A stretch of 64,000 nucleotides of DNA from Oryzomonas sp. (GTDB lineage Bacteria > Desulfobacterota > Desulfuromonadia > Geobacterales > Pseudopelobacteraceae): positions 186,001-250,000 of the forward strand of contig JARLHN010000016.1 in NCBI GenBank assembly GCA_031292255.1, in the 5' to 3' direction. The translations under genes were made by a program, and so were the position numbers. This document shows positions 21,959 through 61,068 of this stretch, one piece after another. Every line of letters begins with the position of its first letter. Position 1 is the stretch's first letter. The notes below the pieces were generated by a model. It was not told the DNA's origin. It was given only the letters and a program-made list of their open reading frames with translations, and did no database searches.

Positions 21959-21960
21959 GG

Positions 21961-29625: not shown

Positions 29626-29652
29626 ATATCGTCCGACGCGGGAAACACTTTA
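29626..29652 (-). promoter_or_regulatory. Sigma-28 (FliA) promoter of flagellin
   Basis: On the minus strand TAAAGTGT (29645-29652), 11 bp, GACGATAT (29626-29633), close to TAAAGTTT-N11-GCCGATAA. The leader to the ATG would be about 60 nt. Upstream of it, towards 29698, a weak stem (TTCC...GGAA) with a T-run may end the TPR-glycosyltransferase operon. Confidence 0.85.
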
Positions 29653-36824: not shown

Positions 36825-36869
36825 TGAACCTTATATTGAATGAAATTAAGCGCAAGAGAGAGGGAACAC

Positions 36870-37625
36870 ATGGCAGACCTTCAAACCACAATATATGAAA
36901 TGGTTAACCATCTTCTGCAAAATCATCCTGAGTTGGCCCTGACAATTAAAGAATTGGCAGATACTGCCTACGGCACTAATCGATCTAATCAAAAATATCA
37001 TGGCTTGGGTGGTTTGGATCAAATATTGGAGAAATGGCTTGACTATGACAATGGTTTTTTCGTTGAACTGGGAGCAAACAATGGAATAGACCAGTCAAAT
37101 ACTTTTTACTATGAGCGCCATAGAAATTGGAAGGGCGTTCTTGTAGAACCGACTCCTCACAACTTCTTATCTTGCAAAAAGCATAGATCAAAGGACACGC
37201 ATATTTTTTGTAATGCCTGTGTGTCTTTCGAATACACGGATAAATTCGTGGAGATCATCTATTCAAACTTAATGTCAACACCATTGGGGCTTGAAACGGA
37301 TATCCCTGATGCTATGGAACACGCTAATGAAGGTAAGCAATTTTTAAAACCAACAGATGATAATTTCATTTTCGGAGCTTTGGCTACACCTCTTAATAAA
37401 CTACTGATAGATTCAAACGCTCCCCATTTAATCGATCTCTTATCTTTGGATGTCGAAGGTGCTGAAATTGAGGTTTTAAAAGGTATCGACCATAACCTTT
37501 TCCGGTTTAAGTATTTGTGCATCGAGAATAGAAATTTCGAAAAATTGTCAGCGTATCTTGGTGAAGTTGGTTATACATTTGTCGAGCAGATTAGTCAGAA
37601 TGATGTTCTTTTCGCAAACAAATGA
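36870..37625 (+). CDS. FkbM-family methyltransferase
   Basis: 251 residues from ATG 36870 with AGAGGG seven bases upstream; ATG 36840 is in frame too. SAM-binding motif FFVELGANNGIDQSNTFYYER near 65, then VLVEPTPHNF, and LLSLDVEGAEIEVLKGID, the FkbM signature. This family methylates sugars or other hydroxyls on glycans and antibiotics. The gene is AT-rich compared with coaBC or dnaB and stands alone on the plus strand among minus-strand genes, so it is probably acquired. Confidence 0.85.
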   Translation: MADLQTTIYEMVNHLLQNHPELALTIKELADTAYGTNRSNQKYHGLGGLDQILEKWLDYDNGFFVELGANNGIDQSNTFYYERHRNWKGVLVEPTPHNFLSCKKHRSKDTHIFCNACVSFEYTDKFVEIIYSNLMSTPLGLETDIPDAMEHANEGKQFLKPTDDNFIFGALATPLNKLLIDSNAPHLIDLLSLDVEGAEIEVLKGIDHNLFRFKYLCIENRNFEKLSAYLGEVGYTFVEQISQNDVLFANK

Positions 37626-37792: not shown

Positions 37793-38722
37793 TTAATATA
37801 AGACGTAACAACATTGAGATAAATTCTTCAGCGATTCCGGTCTGGCGAACACTGCGTTGTAATTATAATGTTCAAGTTCCGGTTCAGCGTAATAATTTTG
37901 AGGAACCGATTCTAAATAAACCTTGTTTGTGTTTTTTTCATACGTGGCTATAAATGTTGAATATCCAAGCTCTTGCATCAATAATCGCAAATATTTTTCT
38001 GATGCACCGGACCTGCGAAGACCAGACCTATTAACCTCGGCAAGAATAATTGGTGAAAACCTTTTTATGACTGAAATTGCCCCTTCAATGGTATGAAATT
38101 CCCATCCTTCGGTATCAACTTTTATAATTTTTATATTAGCAATATTTTCTGAATTTAGCAGCGAATCCACCATGTCCATTTGAATTTTTGATGTAACGGT
38201 ATTTTTGTCCCCAATCTGTTGAATAGTCTCAGGTGATATTCCACATAATGAGTGGGCGCCATCATTTAGTGGGTCGAGAAAAAAATCTATCTCCTTTTTA
38301 AGGTTACCGGCTGCACAGTTGATAGCTTTTATATTAGACATTTTATTTATTTCTATGTTTCTGATCAAGAAAAAAAAGTTTTCCTTATCCGGTTCAATGG
38401 AAATCACCCTTCCCGTGCTTGTAACAAGCGATGACGCCAACAAAGAAAAATAACCAAAATTGGCACCGATATCTATGACTGTATCCCCAGGCCGAAGGAC
38501 TTTCAGCATAATACTAGTGTAATCTGGCTCATAGCAGTTGCCATTCTGAACACTGTTTACAAAAAATGATCTGTGCATATATTTTTTTCTATCTAGGTGA
38601 AGCTTCATACGTGTCATTCTCGAATTTGAATCCCATTGTATTGATACATTACAAATGACATCATCGTGCCCCAAATTTTCCAGTATTTCAGCATCTATTT
38701 GCGGCGAGATGCGGTCGGCCAT
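37793..38722 (-). CDS. FkbM-family methyltransferase
   Basis: 309 residues from ATG 38722 with GGAG upstream. Motif I is GDTVIDIGANFGYFSLLASSLV, then VISIEPDKENFFFLIRNIEIN, and IKIIKVDTEGWEFHTIEGA, all typical FkbM. AT-rich codon use. It is convergent with the other FkbM gene and not closely similar to it. Predicted to O-methylate a glycan residue; target unknown. Confidence 0.85.
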   Translation of the reverse strand: MADRISPQIDAEILENLGHDDVICNVSIQWDSNSRMTRMKLHLDRKKYMHRSFFVNSVQNGNCYEPDYTSIMLKVLRPGDTVIDIGANFGYFSLLASSLVTSTGRVISIEPDKENFFFLIRNIEINKMSNIKAINCAAGNLKKEIDFFLDPLNDGAHSLCGISPETIQQIGDKNTVTSKIQMDMVDSLLNSENIANIKIIKVDTEGWEFHTIEGAISVIKRFSPIILAEVNRSGLRRSGASEKYLRLLMQELGYSTFIATYEKNTNKVYLESVPQNYYAEPELEHYNYNAVFARPESLKNLSQCCYVLY

Positions 38723-38806
38723 GTAAATTCTCCATAAACATATTTGGGGTTTTCCGGCTAAATTACATGAAATCGGCTGTTGCCACTGTCCTAACCTCAG
38801 AAACAC

Positions 38807-38838: not shown

Positions 38839-38846
38839 AGCGAATA

Positions 38847-38870: not shown

Positions 38871-38889
38871 GGTATTTTGGCGTTCCAAG

Positions 38890-39798
38890 TTACCGCACAC
38901 TGAGTTCATAGAGCTTCTTGGATACCGTGGCGGATATACTTTTCTTATAAATACCCCACCAATCCAGACATCTTTGCTGTTGCCCGACAACGGAAGCAGG
39001 GTCGCTTGCCAGCTTTGCACGATACTCTGCGAGAAGAGCGGGGAGTTGATCCCAACTGTCCAGCAGCGGAAAGGGAGGTGTACCGAGAGCAAGAGGACTT
39101 TGCAGAAAGTCATGCTTTAGGCTGATGGGGATACATCCCATCTCCAAAGCGTCGTAGAGTCGGATAGTTTCAGGAGAGTTCCCGGCTGGGCAGGGACAAA
39201 AAATGGAGTACTCCAGAATAGCGGAGTACATACCGACGTTGAACCCTTTTGCAAAGTATTCGGTTGGTTGCAGCAAAATGTCGTGAGGGGCCTGCATGGC
39301 AGCCTGACGAAAAAGTTCTCGCTCATTGCCGAAGGATCGAGGGTTGTCTAACCAGCCGAGGAAGGAGGAAAGAAAGTGTCGATGATTAGCCGGCCTGAGC
39401 ATCTCGGCACGACGGCCCCCTACCCCTGCCTTGGGGCCATTGGGAATCCAGAGGGTTTTACATCCGACCTCCGGGTCTGTAAAAATATCAGAAAAAAAGT
39501 AGTTCCTAAGAATCAGATCACAACTTTTATAAAGTTCAAGACTATACTTTTCCTTGAACTCGTCGCCTAGCTGACAAATTACAACTTTATTGCCTTGAGC
39601 TTTCAGCTGCTCGATAATTTCTGAACTAAGGCATCCAAGTTCCAGGTAAATAACAACACCGTCATGATAGCTATGCAAATCCCACTCCAGCCCGAATGGT
39701 ATTTGCTGCAAGATTACATTTTGGATGAAACCAATTTCAATGACCTCATTTATCGTTAGCTGATTTGTAATAATTGATATATTTCTACCTTGATTCAT
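38890..39798 (-). CDS. Exostosin-like glycosyltransferase
   Basis: 302 residues. The C-terminal half carries FCPCPAGNSPETIRLYDALEMGCIPI, the nucleotide-sugar motif of exostosin/GT47-type proteins; the N-terminal half has Rossmann-like strands (NKVVICQLGDEF, CKTLWIPNGP). No signal or membrane segment, so it should act in the cytosol on a glycan precursor or on flagellin. The N-terminal part is AT-richer than the C-terminal part. Confidence 0.75.
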   Translation of the reverse strand: MNQGRNISIITNQLTINEVIEIGFIQNVILQQIPFGLEWDLHSYHDGVVIYLELGCLSSEIIEQLKAQGNKVVICQLGDEFKEKYSLELYKSCDLILRNYFFSDIFTDPEVGCKTLWIPNGPKAGVGGRRAEMLRPANHRHFLSSFLGWLDNPRSFGNERELFRQAAMQAPHDILLQPTEYFAKGFNVGMYSAILEYSIFCPCPAGNSPETIRLYDALEMGCIPISLKHDFLQSPLALGTPPFPLLDSWDQLPALLAEYRAKLASDPASVVGQQQRCLDWWGIYKKSISATVSKKLYELSVR

Positions 39799-39902
39799 TT
39801 ACCACCCACCTGTTTATTCAAATGTATCACCAGCAGCCTGTCGGACTCGCCAACGTAATACGGTGTGCTCGCTCACGAATCCAGGTAAAAACCCATATAT
39901 AA

Positions 39903-40985
39903 TCAAAACATATTATCGAGAAGTCCCGGCATCTTATAGATATCTATTTCGTATGTCGTCGGATACCCCCAATGTTCAATGCAAGAGCGGTAGTGCTCGC
40001 AGGCGCTGAAATAGTCCTGACAGTTAAAGTGTCGATGTCCTCCATTTATACAGTCAAACACCAACTTTTGCACAGATCCCCTCTGGCTCATTTGAAAATC
40101 AATTGCACGATGGTAGTACCGGCAGGCGCCGACATAGTCTTCGGCGACAAATAGCTGATTTGCAACGAGACAAGCCTGCCCGGTATTGACCGGCTCAATC
40201 AGTTTAAAATCATCAGCCCATGGTGTCATCATAAGGTATTTACGGTAAAGAGACTGCAGTTCAAAATCGTAGCATTTATGCCAGGGCTTAATGGGGCCGC
40301 CGAAGTGGAGGATACGCTCAGGATATTGCGTAAGCATCCCAATGTCTCCCTGTGACACGGGATTCAGATTCCACTTCAAATCAATCTTCCCCTTACGATG
40401 TTTTAAAACGACATTGATGGCGTCTTGATCAGGAAGTATTGCCTTTGGGGAATTGGCATGGAGCCAATTAAGGCACATATCGCTTATTCCCTCTTCCCGC
40501 CAAAGCGCCAGATTAATTACCAAAACGCCGGAGTTAATGTAAATGTCCGTATCCAGGTCCAATCGACTTGTTTGTGCCGGGTTTTCTTCATCCCACCCGG
40601 CACAGCCCAATCCGTTTAAGTCAGTCCTCCAAAGATCCCACAACTCAGTCTCCACAACAAGATCACAATCCAAATAGATAATTTTATCCAGATCACTCAG
40701 TATCTCGGGTAACAATAGGCGATAATACATAGCGGGCGAAATGTGCAGGTGGGATCGTAAGCCAGCTATTCTTTCTATGGAAACTTCTTCAAGTATTATT
40801 TCGACATTGAATTTTGTACCTATTTGCAACAACAGCTCTTTTTCATTTTGCTCTAAGTTGGAATATAATATAAAAACCCGTAAGGAACTAGGGTTGTTGT
40901 GCATAATAATCGAGACAAGTGTTACACCGAGGTGCTGGACGTAAGCCGTATCGATACAGAATACTAAATTGATTTTTTCATTCAT
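39903..40985 (-). CDS. GT8-family glycosyltransferase
   Basis: 360 residues. LVFCIDTAYVQHLGVTLVSIIMHN opens a GT8 domain, IIYLDCDLVV holds the DxD metal/sugar motif, INSGVLVINLALWR and RILHFGGPIKPWH are also diagnostic (retaining, UDP-sugar-using GT-A fold, e.g. LPS galactosyl-/glucosyltransferases). After residue 270 the protein becomes helical with TPR-like pairs (DYVGACRYYHRAIDF, DYFSACEHYRSCIEH). GGAG precedes the ATG. 279 bp of non-coding DNA without a recognisable feature separate it from the next upstream gene. Confidence 0.88.
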   Translation of the reverse strand: MNEKINLVFCIDTAYVQHLGVTLVSIIMHNNPSSLRVFILYSNLEQNEKELLLQIGTKFNVEIILEEVSIERIAGLRSHLHISPAMYYRLLLPEILSDLDKIIYLDCDLVVETELWDLWRTDLNGLGCAGWDEENPAQTSRLDLDTDIYINSGVLVINLALWREEGISDMCLNWLHANSPKAILPDQDAINVVLKHRKGKIDLKWNLNPVSQGDIGMLTQYPERILHFGGPIKPWHKCYDFELQSLYRKYLMMTPWADDFKLIEPVNTGQACLVANQLFVAEDYVGACRYYHRAIDFQMSQRGSVQKLVFDCINGGHRHFNCQDYFSACEHYRSCIEHWGYPTTYEIDIYKMPGLLDNMF

Positions 40986-44360: not shown

Positions 44361-44444
44361 GTTCCCTCGCAGGTTCTAGTATCTCAAGTGCAATCAAAAA
44401 ACAAAATCAACTATCTATGGCCAATCTTCGTTATCCATTGGAGC

Positions 44445-44593
44445 CTCTGGCAAAAGTCACAAAAGTCCCCCCCCTTGCGGGGGAGGACTGGAGGTGAGGC
44501 TACCATGAAATCAGCCGGTTGCAGCTTTAACCACACCCTGACCCCTCCCGCTAAGGGAGGGGGAAACAGACATTCTTACTACTTTTGCAAGAG
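44445..44593. mobile_element. 149-bp MITE-like extragenic element
   Basis: Ends CTCTGGCAAAAGT (44445-44457) and ACTTTTGCAAGAG (44581-44593) are inverted with one mismatch. Inside are two GC-rich hairpins (CCCCCCTTGCGGGGG and CCCTCCCGCTAAGGGAGGG). No ORF. It fills the gap between the giant repeat gene and the OGT gene and may terminate the former. Confidence 0.65.
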
Positions 44594-44596
44594 CCT

Positions 44597-47500
44597 CTAT
44601 AATGTTTGCAGAGATCCAATCTGAGTAGTCGTCAGAGCTTGCACCTGCGTGGCTGACAACGACCCAACCTGCGTAGTCGTCAGTGCCGCCACTTGTGCGG
44701 TGGTCAGATTGGCAATTTGCGTAGTCGTCAGCGCCGCAATGTCCGCGGTGGACAAAGTGGCTATCTGGCTGGTTGCAATCACCACGAGGTCAGCTGTTGT
44801 CACATTCGCAATCTGAGCAGTCGTCAGCGCAGCAACCTGCGCGGTGGTCAGATTCGTTATTTGCGCCGTCGTCAGCGCCGCAATGCCCGCAGTGGACAGA
44901 TTCGCTATCTGGCCGGTCCCGATCGCCGCGAGGTCAGATGTTGTCAGAGTCGCGATCTGAGCAGTCGTCAGCGCAGCAACCTGCGCGGTGGTCAGATTGG
45001 CTGACTGGTCCGTTGTTACATTCGCAATTTGCGTGGTTGTCAGCGCCGCAATGCCTGCGGTGGACAAGTTGGCTATCTGACTGGTCCCAATCGCCGCGAG
45101 GTCAGATGTTGTCAGAGTCGCAATCTGAGCCGTCGTCAGCGCCGCAATCTGTGCGTTGAGCAGATTGGCCGACTGAGCCGTTGTCAGAGTGGCAATTTGC
45201 GCCGTCGTCAGCGCCGCAATGCCCGCGGTGGACACATTGGCTATCTGGCTGGTGCCGATCGCTGCGAGGGCAGCTGTTGTCACATTCGCAATCTGTGCCG
45301 TCGTCAACGACGCCACTTGTGCGTTGGTCAAATTGGCCGACTGGGCCGTTGTCAGATTCGCAATTTGCGCCGTTGTCAGCGCCGCAATGCCTGCGGTGGA
45401 CAAATTGGCTATCTGGCCGGTCCCGATCGCCGCGAGGTCAGATGTTGTCACACTCGTAATCTGCGCCGTCGTCAGCGCTGCCACTTGTGCGTTGGTCAGA
45501 TTGGCCGACTGGGCCGTTGTCAGATTCGCAATTTGCGCCGTCGTCAGCGCTGCAATGCCCGCAGTGGACAAATTGGCTATCTGGCTGGTGCCGATCGCCG
45601 CGAGGTCAGATGTTGTCAGATTCGTAATCTGTGCCGTCGTCAGCGCAGCAACCTGCGCGGTGGTCAGATTGGCCGACTGGGCCGTTGTCACATTCGCAAT
45701 CTGAGTAGTCGTCAGCGCCGCAACGTTCGCGGTGGTCAAAGCGGCTATCTGGCTGGTGCCGATCGCCGCAAGGTCAGCTGTTGACAGATACGCAAGCTGC
45801 GTAGTCGTCAGTGCCGCCACCTGCGCGGTGGTCAGACTGGCTGACTGGGCCGTCGTCAGATCCGCAATTGCCGGCGGGGGTGTTGTCAGATTTGCAATTT
45901 GCGTAGACGTAAACGCCGTCACCTGGAGATATCCAATCTGTGTAGTCGTAAGAGCTTGCACCTGTGTGGACGACAACGACTCCACCTGCGAAGTCGTCAG
46001 CGCCAACACCTGCGCGGTGGCCAGATTATTGATTTGTGTAGTCGTCAGCGCCGCCACCTGCGCGGTGGACAAATTGGCTATCTGGCTGGTTACAATCACC
46101 GCGAGGTCAGATGTTGTCACATTTGCAATTTGCGCCGTCGTCAGCGCCGCCACCTGCGCGGTGCTCAGAGTGGCAATTTGCGCTGTCGTCAGCGCCGCAA
46201 TGCCCGCGGTGGATATATTAGCTATCTGGCTGGTGCCGATCGCCGCAAGGTCAGATGTTGTCACACTCGCAATCTGCGAAGTCGTCAACACCGCCACCTG
46301 CGTGGTGTTCAAATTGGCTGACTGGGCCGTTGTCAGATTCGCAACTTGCGAAGTCGTCAGCGCCGCCACCTGCGCGGTGGACAGATTGGCTATCTGGCTG
46401 GTGCCGATCGCCGCAAGGTCAGATGTTGTCAGAGTCGCTATCTGCGAAGTTGTCAGCGCCGCCACCTGCGCGGTGGTCAAGTTGGCCGACTGGGCCGTTG
46501 TTACATTCGTAATTTGCGTTGTCGTCAACGCCGCCACCTGCGCGGTGGACACATTGGCTATCTGGCTGGTGCTCATCACCGTAAGGTTCGCTGTTGTCAC
46601 ATTCGCGATCTGCGAAGTCGTCAGCGCCGCCACCTGCGCGGTGGTCAAATTGGCCGACTGGGCCGTTGTCAAATTAGCAATCTGCGTAGTCGTCAGCGCC
46701 GCAAAGTCCGCGGTGGACAAATTGGCTATCTGGCTGGTTACAATCGCCGCAAGGTCGGCTGTTGCCAGATTCGCAATCTGCGAAGTCGTCAGCGCCGACA
46801 CCTGCGTCGTTGTCAGATTAGCTGACTGGTCCGTTGTCAGATTCGCAATCTGCGAAGTCGTCAGCGCCGCCACCTGCGCGGTGGACAAATTGACTATCTG
46901 GCTTGTCCCAATCACCGCAAGACTAGCCGTTGCCACATTCGCAATCTGCGAAGTCGTCAGCGCCGACACCTGCGCAGTGGACAGATTGGCTGACTGGGCC
47001 GTTGTCAGATTGGCTATTTGCGCTGTCGTCAGCGCCGCCACCTGCGCGGTGGACAAATTGGCTATCTGGCTGGTGCCCATCACCGCAAGGTCAGCTGTTG
47101 CCACATTCGCAATCTGCGAAGTCGTCAGCGCCGCCACCTGCGCGGTGGACAGATTCGCTGACTGGGCCGTTGTCAGGTTCGCAATCTGCGAAGCCGTCAG
47201 CGCCGCCACCTGCGCGGTGGACAAATTGGCTATCTGGCTGGTACCCATCACCGCAAGGTCAGCTGTTGTCACATTCGCAATCTGCGAAGTCGTCAGCGCC
47301 GCCACCTGCGCGGTAGTCAGATTGGCTGACTGGGCCGTTGTCAGATTCGCAATCTGCGAAGTTGTCAGCGCCGCAATGCCCGCGGTGGACAAATTGGCTA
47401 TCTGGCTGGTGCCGATCGCCGCAAGATCAGATGTTGTCAGAGCCCCAATCTGCGAAGTCGTCAGCGCCGCCGCCTGCGCGGTGGTCAGATTCGTAATTTG

Positions 47501-50500
47501 CGAAGTCGTCAGCGCCGCAATACCCGCTGTGGTCACATTGGCTATCTGGCTGGTCCCAATCGCCGCGAGGTCAGATGTTGTCAGAGTCCCAATCTGCGAA
47601 GTCGTCAGCGCTGCAACCTGCGCGGTGGTCAGTTTGGCCGCATGGGCCGTTTTTACATTCGTAATTTGCGCTGTCGTCAGCGCCGCAATGCCCGCAGTGG
47701 ACAAATTGGCAATTTGGCTGGTCCCGATCGCCGCGAGGTCAGATGTTGTCAGATTCGTAATCTGTGCCGTCGTCAGCGCAGCAACCTGCGCGGTGGACAG
47801 ATTGGCCGACTGGGCCGTTGTCAGATTCGCAATCTGCGTAGTCGTCAGCGCTGCAATGCCCGCGGTGGATACATTGGCTATCTGGCTGGTCCCAATCGCC
47901 GCAAGGTCAGATGTTGTCACATTCGTAATCTGCGCCGTCGTCAGCGCCGCCGTCTGCGTGGTGGTCAGATTGGCCGACTGGGCCGTCGTCAGACTGGCAA
48001 CTTGCGAGGTCGTCAGCGCCGCAATGTTTGCTGTGGACAAATTGGCTATCTGGCTGGTCCCAATCGCCGCAAGGTCAGATGTTGTCACATTCGTAATCTG
48101 CGCCGTCGTCAGCGCCGCAACCTGCACATTGGTCAGATTGGCCGACTGGGCCGTTGTCAGATGAGCAACTTGCGTAGTCGTCAGCGCCGCAATGTTCGCG
48201 GTGGACAAATTGGCTATTTGGCTGGTCCCAATCACCGCAAGGTCAGCATTTGTCACATTCGTAATTTGCGCCGTCGTCAGCGCCGCAACCTGCACATTGG
48301 TCAGATTGGCCGACTGGGCCGTTGTCAGACTGGCAACTTGCGAGGTCGTCAGCGCCGCAATGTTTGCTGTGGACAAATTGGCTATCTGGCTGGTCCCAAT
48401 CGCCGCGAGGTCAGATGTTGTCAAATTCGTAATCTGCGCCGTCGTCAGCGCCGCTACCTGCGCGGCGGTCAAATTGGCCGACTGGGCCGTTGTCAGAATA
48501 GCAACTTGCGAGGTCGTCAGCGCCGCAATGCCCGCGGTGGACAAATTGGCTATCAGGCTGGTTCCCATCACCGCGAGGTCAGCTGTTGTCAGGTTCGCAA
48601 CCTGCGCAGTCGTCAACGCCGCAACCTGCGTGGTAGTCAGATTGGCGGACTGGGCCGTTGTCAGATCCGCAATTGTTGTCTGGGATGCCACATTCGAAAT
48701 CTGCGCAGTCGTCAGCGCCGCTACCTGCGCGGTGGACATCTTGGCAATCTGGCTGGTGGTCATCGCCGAGAGGTCAGCTGTTGTCACATTCGAAATCTGC
48801 GCGGTCGTCAACGCCACCACCTGCGCGGTGGTCAGATTGGCAATTTGCGCTGTCGTCAGAGCCGCAATGTCCGCGGTGGACAACTTGGCAATCTGACTGC
48901 TGCCCATCGCCGCAAGAGCAGATGTCGACAGATTGGCAATTTGCGCTGTCGTCAGCGCCGCCGCCTGCACGGTGGACACATTGGCTGACTGGGCCGTTGT
49001 CAGATTCGCAATTTGCGCTGTCGTCAAAGCCGCAATGTCCGCAGTTGACAACTTGGCAATCTGGCTGGTGCCCATCGCCGCGAGGTCAGCTGTTGTCACA
49101 TTTGCGATCTGCCCAGTCGTCAGCGCCGCAACCTGCGTGGTTGACAGATGGGCGGACTGGGCCGTTGTCAGATTGGCAATTTGCGTAGTCGTCAGCGCCG
49201 CAACCTGCGCGGTGGACAAAGTGGCTATCTGGCTGGTGCCGATCGCCGCGAGGTTAGCTGTTGTCACATTCGAAATCTGCGCCGTCGTCAGCGCCGCCAA
49301 CTGCGCGGTGGTCAGATTGGCCAACTGGGCCGTTGTTACGTTCGCAATCTGCGTGGTCGTCAGCGCCGCAATGTCCGCGGTGGACAACTTGGCTATCTGG
49401 CTGGTACCAATCACCACGAGGGCAGCTGTAGTCAGATTAGCAATCTGCCCAGTCGTCAGCGCCGCCACCTGCGCGGTGGTCAGATTGGCCGACTGGGCAG
49501 TTGTCAGATTGGCAACTTGCGTAGTCGTCAGCGCCGCAACGCCCGCTGTGGACAACTTGGCTATCTGGCTGCTGCCGATCGCCGCGAGGGCAGCTATTGT
49601 CACATTCGAAATCTGCGTAGTTGTCAGTGCCGCCACTTGTGCGGTGGTCAGACTGGCTGACTGGGCCGTTGTCACATTCGCAACTTGCGTGGTTGTCAGC
49701 GCCGCAATGCCCGCGGTGGTCAGATTGGCTATCTGGCTGGTGCCGATCGCCGCGACATCAGCCGTTGTCACATTCGAAATCTGCGTAGTCGTCAGCGCCG
49801 CCATCTGCGCGGTGCTCAGATTGGCAACTTGCGCAGTCGTCAGCGCCGCAATGCCCGCGGTGGACAACTTGGCTATCTGGCCGGTGCCAATCGCCGCGAG
49901 GGCAGCTGTTGTCACATTCGAAATCTGCGCCGTCGTCAGCGCCGCAACCTGCGCGGTGGTCAGATTGGCTGACTGGGCCGTTGTCACATTAGCAACTTGC
50001 GTGGTCGTCAACGCCGCAATGCCTGCGGTGGACAACTTAGCTATCTGGCTGGTGCCGATCGCCGCGAGGGCAGCCGTTGATAGATTCGCAATCTGTCCAG
50101 TCGTCAGCGCCGCAACTTGCGCGGTAGTCAGATTGGCTGTCTGGGCCGTTGTCACATTTGCAATCTGCGTAGTCGTCAGCGCCGCCACCTGCGCGGTGGA
50201 CAACTTGGCAATCTGGCTGGTGCCAATCACCGCAAGGTCAGCCGTTGTCACATTCGTAATCTGTGCCGTCGTCAGCGCCGCCACCTGCGCGGTAGTCAAA
50301 TTGGCCGATTGGGCCGTTGTCAGATTAGTAATTTGCGTAGTCGTCAGCGCCGCAATGCCCGCGGTTGACAAACTGGCTATCTGGCTGGTGCCAATCGCCG
50401 CAAGGTCAGCCGTTGTCACATTCGAAATCTGTGCAGACGTCAGCGCCGCCGCCTGCGCGGTGGTCAGATTGGCAACTTGCGCAGTCGTCAGCGCCGCAAT

Positions 50501-51613
50501 GTCCGCGGTGGACAACTTGGCAATCTGGCTGGTGCCAATCGCCGCAAGGTCAGCAGTTGTCAGATTCGAAATCTGCGAAGTCGTCAGCGCCGCAACCTGC
50601 GCCGTGGTCAGATTGGCGGACTGGGCCGTTGTCAGATTGGCAATTTGTGCAGTCGTCAGCGCCGCCACCTGCGCGGTGGACAACTTGGCAATCTGGCTGG
50701 TGCCGATCGCCGCAAGGTCAGCCGTTGCCACATTCGCAATCTGCGAAGTCGTCAGCGCCGCAACCTGCGCGGTAGTCAGATTGGCGGACTGGGCCGTTGT
50801 CAGATTCGCAATCTGCGAAGTCGTCAGTGCCGCTACCTGCGCGGTGGACAACTTGGCAATCTGGCTGGTGCCCATCACCGCAAGGTCAGCAGTTGTCACA
50901 TTCGCAATCTGCGAAGTCGTCAACGCCGCCACCTGCGCGGTGGTCAGATTCATAATTTGCGTAGTCGTCAGCGCCGCAATGCCCGCGGTGGAGAACTTGG
51001 CAATCTGGCTGGTGCCGAGCGCCGCAAAGTCAGCCGTTGTCAGATTTGCAATCTGCGAAGTCGTCAGCGCCGCTACCTGCGTGGTGGTCAGACTGGCTGA
51101 CTGGGCCGTTGTCACATTCGCAATCTGCACAGTCGTCAACGCCGTCACCTGTGCGGTGGTCAGATTGGCTGACTCGGCCGTTGTCAGATTGGCAACTTGC
51201 GAGGTCGTCAGCGCCGCAATGCTCGCGGTGGACAAATTGGCAAACTGGCCGGTGTTCATCGCAGCAAGGTTTGCCGTTGACAGACTCGCCATCTGCAAGT
51301 AAGTCAACGCCGCCACCTGGGCGGTGGACAGATGGTTGACTTGGGCTGTCGCCAGCGCGAGGAGCTGCGATGCCTGTAGTATCGAAATATCTGTAGTCGA
51401 TAATCCTTGCAGTTGACTGGTGCTCATGATTGCAATGGCAGAAGAGCTGATACTGACAATATCTGAATTTGAGAAGGCCGAAAGCTGGGTAGAGCTTAAA
51501 GCGGCAAACTGAGCAGTACTCAATGCCTGAACGTCCGACGTACCAATGCCCTGTATCTGACTTGTCGTCAAATTTGCGATTTGTGTAGGGCTTAGCGATG
51601 AGATGATAGACAT
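44597..51613 (-). CDS. Giant Thr/Ser-rich octapeptide-repeat protein
   Basis: 2338 residues in one unbroken frame; AGGAGG lies ten bases before ATG 51613. Nearly the whole chain is the octad [ST]-T-x-[QD]-[IVLS]-A-x-[LVIM], about 285 copies. In the core, seven octads make a 56-residue super-repeat (168 bp), one of them always GTSQIA(N/K)L. I see no Cys or Trp, very few charged residues and no signal peptide, membrane segment or RTX motif. Small interruptions lie near residues 978 (ASQTTIADL) and 1911 (TPPPAIADL). The T-x-x-Q start looks like a helix-capping box, so each octad may be a short helix turn. Function unknown. A sigma-28-like promoter lies upstream, and the next gene downstream is a Ser/Thr glycosyltransferase. 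Confidence 0.88.
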   Translation of the reverse strand: MSIISSLSPTQIANLTTSQIQGIGTSDVQALSTAQFAALSSTQLSAFSNSDIVSISSSAIAIMSTSQLQGLSTTDISILQASQLLALATAQVNHLSTAQVAALTYLQMASLSTANLAAMNTGQFANLSTASIAALTTSQVANLTTAESANLTTAQVTALTTVQIANVTTAQSASLTTTQVAALTTSQIANLTTADFAALGTSQIAKFSTAGIAALTTTQIMNLTTAQVAALTTSQIANVTTADLAVMGTSQIAKLSTAQVAALTTSQIANLTTAQSANLTTAQVAALTTSQIANVATADLAAIGTSQIAKLSTAQVAALTTAQIANLTTAQSANLTTAQVAALTTSQISNLTTADLAAIGTSQIAKLSTADIAALTTAQVANLTTAQAAALTSAQISNVTTADLAAIGTSQIASLSTAGIAALTTTQITNLTTAQSANLTTAQVAALTTAQITNVTTADLAVIGTSQIAKLSTAQVAALTTTQIANVTTAQTANLTTAQVAALTTGQIANLSTAALAAIGTSQIAKLSTAGIAALTTTQVANVTTAQSANLTTAQVAALTTAQISNVTTAALAAIGTGQIAKLSTAGIAALTTAQVANLSTAQMAALTTTQISNVTTADVAAIGTSQIANLTTAGIAALTTTQVANVTTAQSASLTTAQVAALTTTQISNVTIAALAAIGSSQIAKLSTAGVAALTTTQVANLTTAQSANLTTAQVAALTTGQIANLTTAALVVIGTSQIAKLSTADIAALTTTQIANVTTAQLANLTTAQLAALTTAQISNVTTANLAAIGTSQIATLSTAQVAALTTTQIANLTTAQSAHLSTTQVAALTTGQIANVTTADLAAMGTSQIAKLSTADIAALTTAQIANLTTAQSANVSTVQAAALTTAQIANLSTSALAAMGSSQIAKLSTADIAALTTAQIANLTTAQVVALTTAQISNVTTADLSAMTTSQIAKMSTAQVAALTTAQISNVASQTTIADLTTAQSANLTTTQVAALTTAQVANLTTADLAVMGTSLIANLSTAGIAALTTSQVAILTTAQSANLTAAQVAALTTAQITNLTTSDLAAIGTSQIANLSTANIAALTTSQVASLTTAQSANLTNVQVAALTTAQITNVTNADLAVIGTSQIANLSTANIAALTTTQVAHLTTAQSANLTNVQVAALTTAQITNVTTSDLAAIGTSQIANLSTANIAALTTSQVASLTTAQSANLTTTQTAALTTAQITNVTTSDLAAIGTSQIANVSTAGIAALTTTQIANLTTAQSANLSTAQVAALTTAQITNLTTSDLAAIGTSQIANLSTAGIAALTTAQITNVKTAHAAKLTTAQVAALTTSQIGTLTTSDLAAIGTSQIANVTTAGIAALTTSQITNLTTAQAAALTTSQIGALTTSDLAAIGTSQIANLSTAGIAALTTSQIANLTTAQSANLTTAQVAALTTSQIANVTTADLAVMGTSQIANLSTAQVAALTASQIANLTTAQSANLSTAQVAALTTSQIANVATADLAVMGTSQIANLSTAQVAALTTAQIANLTTAQSANLSTAQVSALTTSQIANVATASLAVIGTSQIVNLSTAQVAALTTSQIANLTTDQSANLTTTQVSALTTSQIANLATADLAAIVTSQIANLSTADFAALTTTQIANLTTAQSANLTTAQVAALTTSQIANVTTANLTVMSTSQIANVSTAQVAALTTTQITNVTTAQSANLTTAQVAALTTSQIATLTTSDLAAIGTSQIANLSTAQVAALTTSQVANLTTAQSANLNTTQVAVLTTSQIASVTTSDLAAIGTSQIANISTAGIAALTTAQIATLSTAQVAALTTAQIANVTTSDLAVIVTSQIANLSTAQVAALTTTQINNLATAQVLALTTSQVESLSSTQVQALTTTQIGYLQVTAFTSTQIANLTTPPPAIADLTTAQSASLTTAQVAALTTTQLAYLSTADLAAIGTSQIAALTTANVAALTTTQIANVTTAQSANLTTAQVAALTTAQITNLTTSDLAAIGTSQIANLSTAGIAALTTAQIANLTTAQSANLTNAQVAALTTAQITSVTTSDLAAIGTGQIANLSTAGIAALTTAQIANLTTAQSANLTNAQVASLTTAQIANVTTAALAAIGTSQIANVSTAGIAALTTAQIATLTTAQSANLLNAQIAALTTAQIATLTTSDLAAIGTSQIANLSTAGIAALTTTQIANVTTDQSANLTTAQVAALTTAQIATLTTSDLAAIGTGQIANLSTAGIAALTTAQITNLTTAQVAALTTAQIANVTTADLVVIATSQIATLSTADIAALTTTQIANLTTAQVAALTTTQVGSLSATQVQALTTTQIGSLQTL
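44640..51480. repeat. Tandem 24-bp/168-bp DNA repeats
   Basis: Coding repeats of the giant gene. The word CTATCTGGCTGGTGCCGATC recurs with small changes at 168-bp spacing, for example near 45243, 45411, 45579 and 45747. Because 24 and 168 are multiples of three, other frames stay open for long stretches; these are not genes. Confidence 0.92.
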
Positions 51614-52079
51614 ATAATGTTACCCTCCTAATCTAAATAATTATGTAATGTCAAAAATTGCTTAATTTCCTATTAAGGTAACCCTGCGGCTCTGCCAGGG
51701 GCTTCAAATGTTCCCACAGTTCCGGAATGATACAGTTCGCTAAGGTTTCGGTTTTTGATTTTTCGATTGCGATATGCGCCCTTTGAGGGCGCCGGCAAGC
51801 GTAAATCCTCTACCCCTAAAACCGCACATTTACTTTATCGGCATGTGATTACGAATCTGTAATTTTTTTTTGGGGTGAACATTGTACCCCGCCCTGGGCG
51901 GGGCTTTGTCTGCGAGAACAGTACTGTTTCCTTATAGATCGGCTATTTTTGCTCAGGTAGCCGGGATGAGGAGGACGCTTAAATATTGGTGCCCTGTGCC
52001 GTCGATTGTCATGGTCCGGGAGCCGGCAATTTTGTTATTGGGGAAGCTACATTAAAATAAATATTTTTTTCAGAGCTTT
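51614..52079. other. Intergenic region before the giant repeat gene
   Basis: 466 bp without an ORF. It holds the sigma-28-like promoter (51835-51861), a long leader of about 215 nt containing a perfect 7-bp hairpin (GCGCCCT-TTG-AGGGCGC, around 51779), and a hairpin CCCCGCCCTGGGCGGGG near 51888 that may terminate the upstream GT2-TPR-methyltransferase gene. Confidence 0.6.
51835..51861 (-). promoter_or_regulatory. Sigma-28 (FliA) promoter of the giant repeat gene
   Basis: On the minus strand TACA (51858-51861), exactly 15 bp, then GCCGATAA (51835-51842), a perfect FliA -10 element with 3 of 4 matches to the TAAA -35 element. It points at the giant gene. Confidence 0.72.
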
Positions 52080-54224
52080 TCAATTCGTAACAAATGAGTT
52101 TATGTCGTTGATTGTCCCAACATTGCATATGATGCGCCGCTCGGCAAAACTCTCCGGCAAATGCAGAGAACGATAATAAGCAACAATATCGTCAAAATTA
52201 TCAGCAAGGGTTTGGGATGCGGGATTCAGGTTCGTTACAACTGCAAGCCCGGACGGTTTGGCGGGGATAGTCTTGATTGTCAAATCAGGCCTGAAGGCCT
52301 TTAGGCAAGGAATAATCCGCCACACATCACCGGTCCAAAAACCGGTGCAGCGCTCCCGCTCAGCTACAACGGGCGCTATCGGCAGGCAGTCGTGAATCAA
52401 TATCACCGACTTCTCGCCAGCATAACGCTCAAGGTTGATAAAATCTTTCAACGCTTGTTCAAAGAGGTGGAGGCCGTCGATAAATGCCAAATCAAATGTA
52501 TCTTTGCCAATAACCTCACGCAGGTCGTGTTGAGCAAAAAAATCGTCGCTGGTCAACGGGAAGAGCGTAGCGGGGCCATGGGGACAGACATAGTTCAATC
52601 GATCCCAGAAACCTTGGTAGGGGTCGATCCCAACCGCCTTTGTCTCCGGGCCGGCCAGGGCTAGTGATCGACCGTGACCCAGGCCGATCTCCACGTAACT
52701 GGCCGGTCGAAGCTGCTCGTGGAAACGTTGCAACCAAGAATAGTAATCTTCCCCCGGCATCTCCTGCTCGACGGCCAATACAAAAAGCACCTCTCGGGCG
52801 GCATTGGACTGCGGAAACAGCTGTTGAATATTCTCGCAGGCTGCCAGCGCGCCGGAAAGGTCCCCGAGAGATATCCTCACCTTTGCTCGCATCACCTGCA
52901 GAAGCAGCAGGCCGGGCACCAGCAGAAGAGCTGCATCAATCGCATCTGCAGCCGATGAATAATGCCTGCGATGATAAAGCATCAGTCCATGGAAATAGAG
53001 AGTCATCTCCGGTGAAGATTGCGATTCCAGCACCAAGCGCTGTATCTCTCCAACTTCCTGTACGTAGCCGATTTCCTCGTAAAATCGGAGCACCTCAAAA
53101 ACAAGCTCGTATTCGCCAAGTGCAGCGTCAAGCTTTCCTTCTTTCTGAAGGATTACTGACTGACGCACCTGCGCCTTAAGCCTTTCCAAAATGTTACTTG
53201 ATATGAAACGTGTGTTGTTGTCGTATTGTTGGCTCAAGTCCCCAGATGGCGTTTCTTGTAATGCTTTATCAAGTCGGGATGATACTAATGACCCCTTTTG
53301 CGATGTCGGTAAAATGTTCGCCGTAACTGGAGAGCAAGACTCCGCTTGCAAAGTGGGAGTTACCGAGCCAGGCGATACAGCCGATTCAGTTACACCATAT
53401 AATTTTGAGAAATATGGACTGACCATTATAACAATCGGACGATCTAAGTTATCTTTGTACTCTTTGATAATCATATCTTCGGTAACATGATGGTACTGGA
53501 AAGTTAGACCGGCGGTAAGATTAAATTTAGATTGCCGTTGTTTGCGATCAATAATTCGTCGTTTGATCGTAGCATCCAAGTCAACTAATTTCCAATGTGC
53601 GCCATATAATATTTCATTTTCATCTACTGAAATATTCTTTGCTTTCATATTTTCAACGTCGCGGTTATGCCATTTAATTAATGATTTTTCGTAAAGAAGT
53701 TCATGATTGCCGAGTCCCCAACAAATATCTTTGCCGGCTTTAACTATTGCAGGTTTAACGTATAAAATATTAGTTGGATCGTCCATATCCGGATCGCCAT
53801 GCCTGCGCTGGAGAGGCACGGGGAGCTTAGGATCTAACGGGGCATCATCCTTATGCTTATATATTTGCCAAAGATTTGCGAAGTAAATGTCTTTTTGTGT
53901 CTCCTCAATATGTGACCGGACTGATTTTTCCAATGGGTTGCAAAATATGAATTCATCTGAATCAACTAAAATAACATAATCTGCATTTGTAATTGTTCTA
54001 TATTTTTTGTTAAATTCGTTTGCTTTGATAACATCGTCCATCATGTCAGTAAATTGAAAATATTCAATTACAACATTTGGATATTGTCTCGCTATAAACT
54101 CAGTATTATCATTAGTATCACTATCAAGTATTATATGTATCTTGTCGACCCAAGAATAATGACTTAAGAAAAAAGGGGCCATAAATTCTTCATTATACCA
54201 CATCGTAATCAATTCAATGATCAT
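52080..54224 (-). CDS. GT2-like glycosyltransferase / TPR / methyltransferase fusion
   Basis: 714 residues. Residues 1-270 are a GT2-like domain (ELITMWYNEEFMAPFFLSHY, then ADYVILVDSDEFIF with the DxD). A Ser-rich linker (about 280-330) leads to TPR-like helices (about 345-480). Residues 500-690 are a class I methyltransferase of the Methyltransf_24 kind (SYVEIGLGHGRSLALAG, FDLAFIDGLHLFEQALKDF, SVILIHDCLP). The first part is clearly AT-richer than the last, so the gene may have been joined from two sources. Probably adds and methylates a sugar; acceptor unknown. Confidence 0.82.
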   Translation of the reverse strand: MIIELITMWYNEEFMAPFFLSHYSWVDKIHIILDSDTNDNTEFIARQYPNVVIEYFQFTDMMDDVIKANEFNKKYRTITNADYVILVDSDEFIFCNPLEKSVRSHIEETQKDIYFANLWQIYKHKDDAPLDPKLPVPLQRRHGDPDMDDPTNILYVKPAIVKAGKDICWGLGNHELLYEKSLIKWHNRDVENMKAKNISVDENEILYGAHWKLVDLDATIKRRIIDRKQRQSKFNLTAGLTFQYHHVTEDMIIKEYKDNLDRPIVIMVSPYFSKLYGVTESAVSPGSVTPTLQAESCSPVTANILPTSQKGSLVSSRLDKALQETPSGDLSQQYDNNTRFISSNILERLKAQVRQSVILQKEGKLDAALGEYELVFEVLRFYEEIGYVQEVGEIQRLVLESQSSPEMTLYFHGLMLYHRRHYSSAADAIDAALLLVPGLLLLQVMRAKVRISLGDLSGALAACENIQQLFPQSNAAREVLFVLAVEQEMPGEDYYSWLQRFHEQLRPASYVEIGLGHGRSLALAGPETKAVGIDPYQGFWDRLNYVCPHGPATLFPLTSDDFFAQHDLREVIGKDTFDLAFIDGLHLFEQALKDFINLERYAGEKSVILIHDCLPIAPVVAERERCTGFWTGDVWRIIPCLKAFRPDLTIKTIPAKPSGLAVVTNLNPASQTLADNFDDIVAYYRSLHLPESFAERRIICNVGTINDINSFVTN

Positions 54225-55217: not shown

Positions 55218-57164
55218 CTATTGGATTTCATGGTACTCCAATTTATTACGTTGGAACTCCAAAAAACGTCGGAATGCACTGATTTCCAGGTCATCTGGAC
55301 ATTGATTTAAACATATACAGGCTGCATCATAATTCTTATTGTCCATGTATTCTTTAGCACAGTTTATAACATACCACTTGAAACCACTTACTAGTAATTC
55401 TTGATTGTTATCAGTATCAGCAATGCCCCGCCACTTGTTGAGAAACAGCAACCGGTTGCGGAGAAGAATTTCCCCGGCCGTTTCAGTCCGCTCATAAAAT
55501 GGAATTTCCCTCAGCGCCCGAATAGTGCCGCTCCAGTGATGGTCGTAGGTGGTTGTTGGAACGATGTAGCTCTTGAGGCCCGCCCGTTTGATCTGCAAAC
55601 CCAAGTCCCACTCCTCGAAATAGCAGGGAGTGAATCCATTTTCAAACCGGATCAGTTTTGCGTTGAAGTGCTCCAGCTTTACGGCAAAGAAGAACCCTGA
55701 AACGGCATCCACCGCCAGGGGTTGGTTGAAACTCCCCTTGTCGAAGTAGATGTTATCTCTTGTCAAGGAAAAATCAAAGAAACTCCCCTGGGGACCCACG
55801 CAGGCCGCTCCCGGCAGCGAGTTAAGCGTTTGTTCGAGTGAGATTATGGCTGCCCGTTCCACATGAAGATCGGCATTCATAATGAAGACGGTTGGGGTTG
55901 CGGCTATCTCAAGCCCCAGGTTCCAGGCCCGGGCAACCCCGATGTTCTGTTTCATGATGGCGTAGCGGTTGATGCGGGGATGTCCTTTAAGCTGCTCCGC
56001 CACTTCCTGGCCGTTGAAGATCACAATCACATCGCCATCCACCTCTTCCAGATCATGCAGTAAGGTGCCGACGTTGTATTCACTCGCCGGCGACATGTCA
56101 AGCACAGGAATGACAAAGCTGCGCCGGGCGCTGCTGATGCAGACGGCGTCGTGGGTTGCGGCGTCAATGGCGGACACATCCACAAGGGAACGCTCCCGCA
56201 ATTCCTCCGCGGAGAAGGTATCCGGCTTGCCGCCCAGGGCGACCGCCAACAGGTCCTCCACCCGGTGGGCATAAGTGTGGGCATTGTGGACCAACCGCCG
56301 GCCACGGGCGGCAATCTGTTCACGGAGGGCATCATTTTCCAGATAAAAACGCGCAACCTCAGCCAGCTCTTCGTCACGCCGGTAAAGAGCATAATCCTCG
56401 CCGTTATTGAAAAGTATATCCTGGCCGCTGTTCCGGGCCATATCGGTGAGCAACAGCGAACCGGTTGACAGCGCCTCGAAGACCCGCATGTTCAGGTCGT
56501 TGCTCACCGCCTCATTTAATACGATCTTGGATTGAGAGAAAACTCGGGCCATATCGTCCCAAAAGCACCGTTCATAATAGAGCGGGATCTGGCTCCCCAG
56601 TTGGACAAAGAGTCTTTCGCGGCGCGACCCGGCCGGCACGCCTCCCACAAAACTAACAGGATAAAGCTTCGGCAAGTCGATTTTGCAGTGAATTTCCTGG
56701 TCACAGGCAAGAGGAAGCCAGTATGCATTGCACCCCTGCGCCCTGAAATCCGGGAGATATTCTCTCTGGGCGATAAATACCCGGTCAAAATTTTTTGCCC
56801 ACTGAATTTGCGCAGCAAGAAAGATATGGTTGTCGATGAGGTAACAAACCTTGGGACAGGAAAGTGCTTCCAAGTTATGGGGAAAGTGCCCATCCACCGA
56901 ATGTACCCAGATATAGAGGTCAGGATGCTGCTCAGGTGGTGTGGTGGTGAGAATTTCGGCCATATCGGGAGTGGGCGAGGTTTCTATGTCATGAGGCAGC
57001 ACAGGCAGTTTCATATTCTGGAACTTCCCGACTTCGAGCAGATGCTCAGTCACATGGGGACCAATAGTTGTCAATCGGCATATCCGGCGCAGTACCCGCT
57101 CCAAATAGACGGCAGTTGTTATCGGATGGGCCACGTAGGCCAGCCAGACGTTCAGTTCATTCAT
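55218..57164 (-). CDS. Two-domain glycosyltransferase (CgeB-like plus GT2)
   Basis: 648 residues from ATG 57164, with GGGAG nine bases upstream; an ATG at 57209 overlapping the preceding stop is the alternative. Residues 1-330 form a GT-B-like domain with SFVGGVPAGSRRERLFVQL and LNEAVSNDLNMRVFEALSTGSLLLTD, as in CgeB/spore-maturation glycosyltransferases. Residues 355-600 are a GT2 domain (SFVIPVLDMSPASEYNVGTL, QNIGVARAWNLGLEIA, FIMNADLHVE as DxD equivalent, FEEWDLGLQIKRAGLKSYIVP). A helical tail follows. It probably adds two sugars in succession. Confidence 0.85.
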   Translation of the reverse strand: MNELNVWLAYVAHPITTAVYLERVLRRICRLTTIGPHVTEHLLEVGKFQNMKLPVLPHDIETSPTPDMAEILTTTPPEQHPDLYIWVHSVDGHFPHNLEALSCPKVCYLIDNHIFLAAQIQWAKNFDRVFIAQREYLPDFRAQGCNAYWLPLACDQEIHCKIDLPKLYPVSFVGGVPAGSRRERLFVQLGSQIPLYYERCFWDDMARVFSQSKIVLNEAVSNDLNMRVFEALSTGSLLLTDMARNSGQDILFNNGEDYALYRRDEELAEVARFYLENDALREQIAARGRRLVHNAHTYAHRVEDLLAVALGGKPDTFSAEELRERSLVDVSAIDAATHDAVCISSARRSFVIPVLDMSPASEYNVGTLLHDLEEVDGDVIVIFNGQEVAEQLKGHPRINRYAIMKQNIGVARAWNLGLEIAATPTVFIMNADLHVERAAIISLEQTLNSLPGAACVGPQGSFFDFSLTRDNIYFDKGSFNQPLAVDAVSGFFFAVKLEHFNAKLIRFENGFTPCYFEEWDLGLQIKRAGLKSYIVPTTTYDHHWSGTIRALREIPFYERTETAGEILLRNRLLFLNKWRGIADTDNNQELLVSGFKWYVINCAKEYMDNKNYDAACICLNQCPDDLEISAFRRFLEFQRNKLEYHEIQ

Positions 57165-57205
57165 TATGCAGGCTCCCTGGCCACTTTGTCCATTGTTCGT
57201 CCGGG

Positions 57206-57568
57206 TCATGCCTTTATACAGATGGAACCCCTGTATTCATCGGGTCCCATGCCAGTGGTAAATGAAAATTTGATGCCTTCGACAACGATAAAACCGGAGC
57301 GGCCAAGGAGCGATGTCCATGTGCCGCAGCCGAAGACGCTGTAGTGATTGGGGTTTGTTTCGTGATGGATATCCAATGCAGGCCCCTGGCCACAGCCGAT
57401 GTCAAGAATTCGTTTATCCGTGCTGATCAGATACTTGGGCAGGAGTGCGTTGAGTACTTCGCTTGTAATATTCGAGTGAAGGGGGGACGGTGTCTCCGGA
57501 TAGATTTCACTCTCTATTTTATCTACAAAGGAGACAAGGCGGGAAATCCCTTTGAATGAAACATCCAT
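57206..57568 (-). pseudogene. Internally deleted SAM methyltransferase
   Basis: 120 residues from ATG 57568 (AGGA six bases upstream). It starts like a methyltransferase, with RILDIGCGQGPALDI near 54-68, then jumps directly to a C-terminal segment (YSVFGCGTWTSLLGRSGFIVVEGIKFSFTTGMGPDEY). The roughly 80-100 residues usually lying between motif I and such an ending are missing, yet the frame stays open. It is likely inactive. The stop overlaps a possible start of the next gene. Confidence 0.6.
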
Positions 57569-59808: not shown

Positions 59809-61068
59809 TCAGAATGGGGCCGCGTTCGCTCCATCGACCGAGTTTGCTGCCTGGTCCATGGTTCGGCCTTGCGCATCCTTGCCATTGAACGTGAAGACGA
59901 TATGGGAGGGGTCGATCACGGCACTGCCGTCGGCGTTCTGACTGAGTTGAAAGTTGACGGTTGCTTCGTTCGTAAGGGTATTGTAGGTGACCGAAAGCGG
60001 TGTGGGGGGGATTGCGGCATCTTTGCTGGATTGCGGCATCATGTCGTTGTAATAGCCGGCTTCCGGGCTGTTGGCACGCGAGAGCGTCCAATTTGCGGGG
60101 TTTGTGATCGAACTGACATCCATGGCATTGTTAAAGGCGATGGTCATGGAAAAGGTCTCGGAGCTGTTGGGGGTGGACAATGACGTATCCAGATACCAGA
60201 GAGGGGTTGCCGGCCCAAGGATGTCGTCAAATTTATTATTCTGGGTAGCCATTGAATCCACTGTCACCATCTGGGGATTGCTGAGTACATTCTGCAACTG
60301 CGAAGCCAGGGAAGTATTCGAACCTTTCAGGATCGTCAACTGTTTTTGGGCATCTGCGGTCTGACCGAGCCCGTTGTAAGCCACACCGAGTTGATAGTTG
60401 GCAGAAGGGAAATTGGATTTCAGGTATAATGATTTTGTCAGGCTCGCCACCGCGTCCTTATAGTCCCCCATCTTGTTGCAGACCTCTCCCAGGGCATAGT
60501 AAACGTTGCCGTCATTCGGGGAAATCTTCTGAGCTTTTTCAAATTGCGTCAAGGCCCCGGAGAGGTTGCCTTGCGTGAGGTATTGCTGCCCGAGGGTGTA
60601 GGGAGCAACCGGATCACGGGGGTTCAACTGTTCCGCTTTCTTGAACGCCTTTTCCGAGTCGCTATACTGCTTGTTCTGCAGGTAGGCGTTTCCCAGGCTG
60701 ACGTAGGCGGTCTGCAGCGTGGGCGTGGCAGAGGTGGTCGAGGATGAGGATGTGGCAGCGGTTGTGTAGGAACTGGCGGAAGCGCTCATTACGCTCACGA
60801 GCTTTTTGAACGTGTTGATGGCGTCGTTGTTATCCCCCTGCGCCAGGTATAACTGGCCTAAATAACTATAGGCCGTCGTATTCTGCGGATCCATGCCCAA
60901 AGCCTGCTTGAACAAAGTGATTGCCTTGGCATTCTTATTCTGCCCCATAAGATTTGCAGCCTGCGCAATGGTGTACTGAGCCATCTGCTTTTGCTGACTC
61001 TGGGCACTCTGATAGATCGATGTCAGGTCAACGTATCCGCTCATGGAATCAAAAACTGAAGCGCTCAT
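59809..61068 (-). CDS. TPR protein with C-terminal Ig-like domain, sigma-28 controlled
   Basis: 419 residues. The N-terminus (SASVFDSMSGYVDLTSIYQSAQSQQKQMAQYTIAQA) has no classical signal peptide and resembles ends of proteins exported by the flagellar apparatus in its Ser/Gln richness. TPR units cover about 30-255 with a Ser/Thr-rich insert (about 97-115, SSYTTAATSSSSTTSATPT). Residues 290-410 look like a beta-sandwich (SETFSMTIAFNNAMDVSSITNPANWTL, IDPSHIVFTFNGKDAQG), similar to Big-type surface domains. AAAGGAG precedes the ATG. The promoter at 61102-61128 is FliA-like. Function unknown. Confidence 0.8.
   Translation of the reverse strand: MSASVFDSMSGYVDLTSIYQSAQSQQKQMAQYTIAQAANLMGQNKNAKAITLFKQALGMDPQNTTAYSYLGQLYLAQGDNNDAINTFKKLVSVMSASASSYTTAATSSSSTTSATPTLQTAYVSLGNAYLQNKQYSDSEKAFKKAEQLNPRDPVAPYTLGQQYLTQGNLSGALTQFEKAQKISPNDGNVYYALGEVCNKMGDYKDAVASLTKSLYLKSNFPSANYQLGVAYNGLGQTADAQKQLTILKGSNTSLASQLQNVLSNPQMVTVDSMATQNNKFDDILGPATPLWYLDTSLSTPNSSETFSMTIAFNNAMDVSSITNPANWTLSRANSPEAGYYNDMMPQSSKDAAIPPTPLSVTYNTLTNEATVNFQLSQNADGSAVIDPSHIVFTFNGKDAQGRTMDQAANSVDGANAAPF

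Follow-up and report, generated by a model that had tools for sequence, protein, structure and literature searches.

The flagellin locus of an Oryzomonas sp. contains a gene for a giant repeat protein (the ALTTAQ protein, P0001). Swimming cells probably make this protein and display it, coated with sugars, at their surface. This reading rests on the location at the flagellin locus, a flagellar-type promoter, the pairing of the repeat gene with a glycosyltransferase gene in relatives and the exporters encoded beside some of them. The window, i.e., the whole stretch of 64,000 nucleotides that was analysed, also carries genes for a flagellin glycosylation island (Table 1). The mechanism favoured here, to which a probability of about 0.55 is assigned, is that P0001 would be a glycoprotein co-expressed with flagellin under FliA, modified in the cytoplasm by a GT41 enzyme and sent to the surface; in relatives, export would run through a type I system and not through the flagellum.

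In this scheme, a giant acidic, Ser/Thr-rich repeat rod would be produced alongside flagellin, its gene being read from a separate FliA promoter, a step for which the sequence evidence is strong. Judging from gene order and domains, the neighbouring TPR-GT41 enzyme would read the repeats in the cytoplasm and add sugars to many Thr and Ser residues, as FlmG does on flagellin, and its fused NodZ-like domain, with the GT8, GT47 and FkbM neighbours, may extend or cap the glycan. The glycoprotein would go to the cell surface, for which relatives most likely use the type I exporter encoded next to the gene (ABC and HlyD, with TolC in some), and would probably act as a surface coat or adhesin of motile cells in the manner of FrhA, with an unrelated repeat. 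The export, glycosylation and function of P0001 itself we infer from its relatives. A repeat family with an uninformative name thereby gains a testable role, that of a giant substrate accompanied by a GT41 writer of its own, frequently by an exporter and in several lineages by flagellar genes. If the scheme is true, the timing of flagellar gene expression would be linked to a large glycoprotein coat, and hundreds of potential acceptor residues on one natural substrate would become available for the study of bacterial GT41 enzymes.

The octad-repeat protein and its promoter

The sequence-only reading had described a single frame of 2338 residues built of Thr/Ser-rich octads, and the frame is indeed open for 2338 codons. 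The repeat family is Pfam PF20080 (E=0, 1427 bits against a curated cut-off of 26.4, 69 stretches); a search of NCBIfam profiles gave no match. The octads take the form L-T/S-T-x-Q-I/V-A-x, the hydrophobic pattern has a period of 8 (autocorrelation 0.83 at lag 8), and higher-order DNA repeats of 168 and 336 nt are found within the gene. The protein (229 kDa, pI 4.05) consists of 23% Ala, 22% Thr and 9% Ser (Ser and Thr together 31%), and both Cys and Trp are absent. The pN/pS ratio is 0.58 among the repeat units and 0.55 for the N-terminus compared with a paralog on contig C34 of the same assembly; as synonymous sites diverge more strongly among the repeat units than replacement sites do, weak to moderate constraint is suggested. 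Pfam matches to LRR_EndoS and SAM_TNK, and likewise the LRR chains among the PDB matches, were put down to the coincidental spacing of a low-complexity repeat and rejected.

The octad pattern of P0001 recurs in PDB entry 9zem, named 'HeliScrew4' (phmmer E=3.9e-14 over 108 residues). The match is direction-specific, since reversing the query leaves a match to the reversed chain only, and seven of the eight octad permutations score at most 25 bits or nothing, while one keeps 50.7 bits. The name suggests a helical screw; the entry, compared by name and sequence only, differs in being a 120-aa chain whose octads contain Pro, Glu and Lys. A literature search on the HeliScrew name found no paper.

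An earlier statement that no described flagellar component has this sequence stands in part: literature searches on ALTTAQ and PF20080 found no paper on the repeat, and none looking related was among the matches listed for octapeptide-repeat and giant proteins, but the repeat had already been named in Pfam. That name (ALTTAQ_rpt) brings no function, and PF20080 proteins in plasmid records, the best of which are 46-47% identical to P0001 across the whole query, are annotated as 'heme utilization protein', 'ICE nucleation protein' or 'hypothetical protein'. In contrast to these records, the gene context described here ties the repeat to flagellin, FliA, GT41 and type I secretion systems (T1SS).

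The gene is preceded by a FliA (sigma-28)-type site. A TACA-N15-GCCGATAA element had been reported about 215 nt before the start and is confirmed at 51861-51835; the last base of the full site, TACAGATTCGTAATCACATGCCGATAA, lies 221 nt ahead of the ATG. On its own, the plain E. coli-type consensus would not support the site, because across the genome it outnumbers its reversed control only slightly (26 versus 22 sites with at most one mismatch), and it has no site in the 80 kb carrying fliA, flhA, flgI and flgK. It was rejected as genome-scale evidence, being at chance level, and a lineage matrix was used instead. Among 30 flagellin loci of relatives, TAAAG opens the best match in 24, and the distance from the start of the match to the ATG is 79-165 nt in 28. 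The matrix was trained on 23 flagellin promoters of relatives, with the genome's own flagellin excluded, and leans to the consensus because the training sites were chosen as best consensus matches. Over both strands of 184 kb, its highest score falls on the genome's own fliC (21.5), the next on the ALTTAQ site (17.1) and the third on a site at 14.6. Of 2000 first-order Markov sequences modelled on the 467-nt upstream region, 5 reach 17.1. The pattern TANAG-N16-CGANA occurs 51 times genome-wide versus 106 times for its reversed control, and the ALTTAQ site is sixth by score; the other five of the top six comprise fliC and four sites inside ORFs, one of them ~50 nt ahead of the next ORF. The ALTTAQ site is weakest at its third base, which is C instead of A. 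A sigma-70 scan upstream of the gene returned one site against 1.0 expected. FliA itself is encoded in the genome (TIGR02479, 244.7 bits, over the cut-off). With the second-best matrix score, the Markov result and a fliA gene, the FliA-type control proposed earlier is probably right. Production together with the filament, which had been proposed as well, and hence co-expression with it, is likely given the promoter sequence, the fliA gene and the position at the flagellin locus.

Table 1. Features of the window discussed in the text, with the basis of each assignment.
Feature	Position	Strand	Basis and remarks
FlaF	27743..28126	minus	Pfam
FlbT	28116..28505	minus	Pfam
Flagellin, 271 aa	28743..29558	minus	Pfam Flagellin_N/C; sole flagellin found in assembly
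FliA-type promoter of flagellin gene	29626..29652	minus	TAAAGTGT-N11-GACGATAT; top matrix score of 184 kb, outside training set
TPR-GT9 protein, conserved island	29699..33883	minus	Pfam; 50-65% identity at relatives' flagellin loci
TPR-GT9 protein, conserved island	33873..36470	minus	Pfam; 42-63% identity at relatives' flagellin loci
FkbM-type methyltransferase	36840..37625	plus	Pfam
FkbM-type methyltransferase	37793..38806	minus	Pfam
GT47/RXYLT1-like glycosyltransferase	38890..39798	minus	Pfam
GT8 glycosyltransferase	39903..40985	minus	Pfam
TPR + GT41 + NodZ/fucosyltransferase-like protein, 1031 aa	41265..44360	minus	Next gene downstream of ALTTAQ; Pfam
Dispersed palindromic repeat copy	44436..44600		13 further partial genome matches, 71-93% identical
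ALTTAQ octad-repeat protein P0001	44597..51613	minus	2338 aa; PF20080 match and composition
FliA (sigma-28)-type promoter of repeat gene	51835..51861	minus	TACAGATT-N11-GCCGATAA; matrix score and Markov test
GT2 + methyltransferase protein, conserved island, edge of inserted block	52080..54224	minus	Pfam; C-terminal half 61-70% identical in relatives
Glycosyltransferase, conserved island	55218..57209	minus	Pfam; 65-70% identity in relatives
TPR protein of relatives' flagellin loci	59809..61068	minus	48-61% identity in G001, G005, G017, G031, G048, G054

The flagellin glycosylation island and its GT41 gene

The only other Flagellin_N match in the assembly lies beside flgK on contig C36; Flagellin_C finds no match in it, and we interpret it as FlgL. 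The flagellin island is also present in two genomes of the same genus, G001 and G005, both without ALTTAQ. In these, the GT2/methyltransferase gene and the TPR-GT9 gene are separated by 0.4 kb (G001) and 1.2 kb (G005, with one 380-codon ORF inside), while in the window the same junction (36471-52079) spans 15.6 kb and contains the ALTTAQ, GT41, GT8, GT47 and FkbM genes. Other genes are found at this junction in G028 (about 16 kb) and G012 (about 19 kb). The junction is a variable spot within the flagellin glycosylation island. Homologues of the TPR protein at 59809..61068 lie beside T1SS genes in some relatives. Multihaem cytochromes and an NrfD-like protein are encoded near the flagellin locus, at 18519-25061; the assembly contains no SSU rRNA gene, and the cytochromes may point to a Geobacter-like bacterium.

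The protein encoded downstream of ALTTAQ matches GT41 (PF13844, 1.8e-76); its NodZ-like domain stays under the cut-off of 28.3 (PF05830, 3.6e-6, 26.5 bits). A GT41 protein is encoded directly downstream of ALTTAQ in seven of the eight chromosomal relatives with the 3' side covered (G017, G031, G043, G046, G048, G050, G054 and G060), the exception being G017. In six of these seven, GT41 is followed by another domain (GT2 in four, GT1 in one, a TylF methyltransferase in one), which suggests a writer of the core sugar joined to a second modifier that varies. On plasmids, GT41 is found near ALTTAQ at 12 of 16 loci versus one of seven 50-kb control stretches (350 kb together) taken from those plasmids; the loci without a nearby GT41 are those of Shinella, Rhizobium BG6, Pararhizobium and Sinorhizobium RAC02.

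The window enzyme has the TPR-glycosyltransferase fusion (TPR and GT41) that characterises FlmG-type enzymes. In the excerpted account of the Caulobacter system, FlmG combines TPRs with a GT-B glycosyltransferase domain and modifies flagellin in the cytoplasm before export, and the host also uses FlaF and FlbT (PMC7591256). As far as that account goes, both systems share the union of TPR and glycosyltransferase domains and the presence of FlaF and FlbT. However, the window enzyme contains an extra NodZ-like domain and adjoins a giant repeat gene, whose product would be its substrate.

Export and the C-terminal end

P0001 has no signal peptide apparent by eye. Pfam and NCBIfam recognise neither RTX repeats nor a C-terminal secretion region, the C-terminal end consisting of octads, and find no flagellin- or hook-type terminal domains. 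At the chromosomal loci with the 5' side covered, T1SS genes lie 5' of ALTTAQ in six of nine; the nine comprise the two loci of the window genome (the window and C34) and those of relatives, and the window, C34 and G060 are without T1SS. The system is of the PrtD type in G017, G031, G048 and G054. In G017, ABC and HlyD pass the cut-offs of TIGR01842 and TIGR01843, respectively, and the TolC homologue falls below its own. G046 and G050 have a C39-type ABC at the 5' side, with HlyD checked in G046. In the Rubrivivax MAG (L003), no T1SS is found in the 8 kb ahead of the ALTTAQ gene. Near five of the 16 plasmid loci (Cereibacter x2, Pseudomonas x2, Niveispirillum) there are genes for ABC and HlyD, and HlyD is found in none of the seven control stretches; on one plasmid of a Cereibacter sphaeroides 2.4.1-derived strain, the octad gene stands side by side with those for GT41, the ABC transporter and HlyD. 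In the window genome, whose assembly is 88% complete, no partner T1SS was found, and the best match to the G017 ABC shows 33% identity over 268 residues.

These neighbours bear on two other fates of the protein. P0001 could be a cytoplasmic acceptor or scaffold for the island glycosyltransferases that is never exported, as would fit its pairing with TPR-GT41 and the lack of a recognised export signal; the T1SS genes at both chromosomal and plasmid loci of the family argue against this, and we regard it as very improbable. Alternatively, it could leave the cell as a late substrate of flagellar type III export and bind to the filament. Passage through the flagellum had been put forward in the sequence-only reading, and it would agree with the FliA-type promoter, the flagellin locus, the absence of a T1SS found for P0001 and the fact that the plasmid copies in Pseudorhizobium, Rhizobium sp. 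11515TR and Rhodovastum have flagellin, FlgE or FlhA/FlhB/FliI nearby. However, P0001 is without flagellin- or hook-type domains, and the neighbouring exporter in relatives is a T1SS even where flagellin lies 10-27 kb off. Export by the flagellum was therefore not upheld; it is the weaker part of that reading, and this route appears improbable.

A surface protein made with the flagellum is known from Vibrio cholerae. In the excerpted account, FrhA is a large repetitive surface protein and a flagellar-regulated hemagglutinin, namely an RTX adhesin with a sugar-binding domain, and such RTX adhesins pass through a type I system (PMC10865825). Within the scope of that account, the ALTTAQ protein is similarly large and repetitive and has a flagellar-type promoter, but P0001 matches the ALTTAQ repeat only and its 88%-complete assembly yielded no T1SS. 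By analogy, the nearest known way of working is that of FrhA combined with an FlmG-like TPR glycosyltransferase, the repeat being unrelated.

The stop codon of P0001 is formed at the edge of a palindromic repeat (DNA fold z -3.3) that is dispersed in the genome, has ends of the GAGCCTC/GCAAAAGT type and carries hairpin arms rich in GC. The protein has no counterpart of the non-repeat tail present in all eight chromosomal relatives with a 3' end. Yet octads stand at or near the end of a Cereibacter, a Rhodovastum and one Rhizobium protein, and the tail-less Rhodovastum protein is the best plasmid match to P0001 (47%). The gene may therefore be cut short here or be of a tail-less type, and tail loss through the repeat element, as a certainty, is weakened by the octad-ending proteins. 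P0001 might thus be a decaying copy, in which a block acquired into the variable hotspot would have lost exporter and tail upon insertion of the palindromic repeat, leaving a useless or cytosolic protein. The site of the stop codon, the tails of the relatives, the missing partner T1SS and an N-terminus whose 126 residues find no match in five genomes of the same genus are all consistent with decay. However, 2338 codons are still open, both pN/pS values are below 1, the promoter looks intact and other members of the family likewise end in or near octads. We consider decay unlikely and retain the surface glycoprotein as the preferred reading.

Recurrence in relatives and on plasmids

ALTTAQ matches are found in nine genomes (the window genome, G017, G031, G043, G046, G048, G050, G054 and G060) and, among 14 control genomes, in Caulobacter vibrioides only. 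The second copy in the window assembly lies at the end of contig C34, is open for 609 codons and has an N-terminus 78% identical to that of P0001. The stretch before it (L013:8614-8790) reads by eye as what we take to be a tRNA and a REP-type transposase fragment.

Ten chromosomal ALTTAQ genes were scored with the FliA matrix (window, C34, G017, G031, G046, G048, G050, G054, G060 and L003), for which the 99% point of random 500-nt stretches is 12.6. Three of them reach at least 17, namely the window gene, G031 (18.3) and G054 (23.0), all with sites about 190-255 nt ahead of the start; Markov sequences as good number 2 of 2000 for G031 and 0 of 2000 for G054. The other seven, including the C34 copy, have no site of at least 17. 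L003, the nearest of them with a site of 14.9 at 112 nt before its GTG start, is over the random 99% point and was counted as a miss because its score is below 17. None of 11 plasmid genes reaches 17, the best being two Pseudomonas genes at 12.0. Given these counts, FliA control is likely here and recurrent, and not a property of the whole family.

Flagellin lies 15 kb from ALTTAQ in the window, 10 kb in G017, 19 kb in G048 and 27 kb in G031. The stretch fetched for G054 contains the flagellin-flanking genes, flagellin itself being outside, and those fetched for G043, G046, G050 and G060 contain no flagellin-island genes. FlgO-domain genes stand beside the T1SS genes in G017, G031, G048 and G054; in G017 (L061:8578-9760), two FlgO-domain proteins are encoded between the T1SS genes and flagellin. 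A broader and doubtful proposal is that the ALTTAQ giants form a new class of flagellum-associated surface glycoproteins: helical-screw rods co-expressed with flagellin through FliA and glycosylated in the cytoplasm by a dedicated TPR-GT41 'writer' carrying exchangeable second domains. The rods would be assembled at the flagellum or flagellated pole, either on it or around it, to form a coat or tether, the whole being a recurrent module moved between bacterial lineages and plasmids.

Flagellar genes adjoin three of the 16 plasmid ALTTAQ loci versus none of the seven controls, numbers too small for a firm rate. The Rhodovastum plasmid has ALTTAQ near FlhA, FlhB, FliR and FliI, and that of Rhizobium sp. 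11515TR near an FlgE with four Pfam domains of the FlgE/F/G type. On the plasmid of Pseudorhizobium flavum (L149:3784-17614), a DUF1217 protein, FlgE, two flagellins, the ALTTAQ gene and GT41 are found in one cluster.
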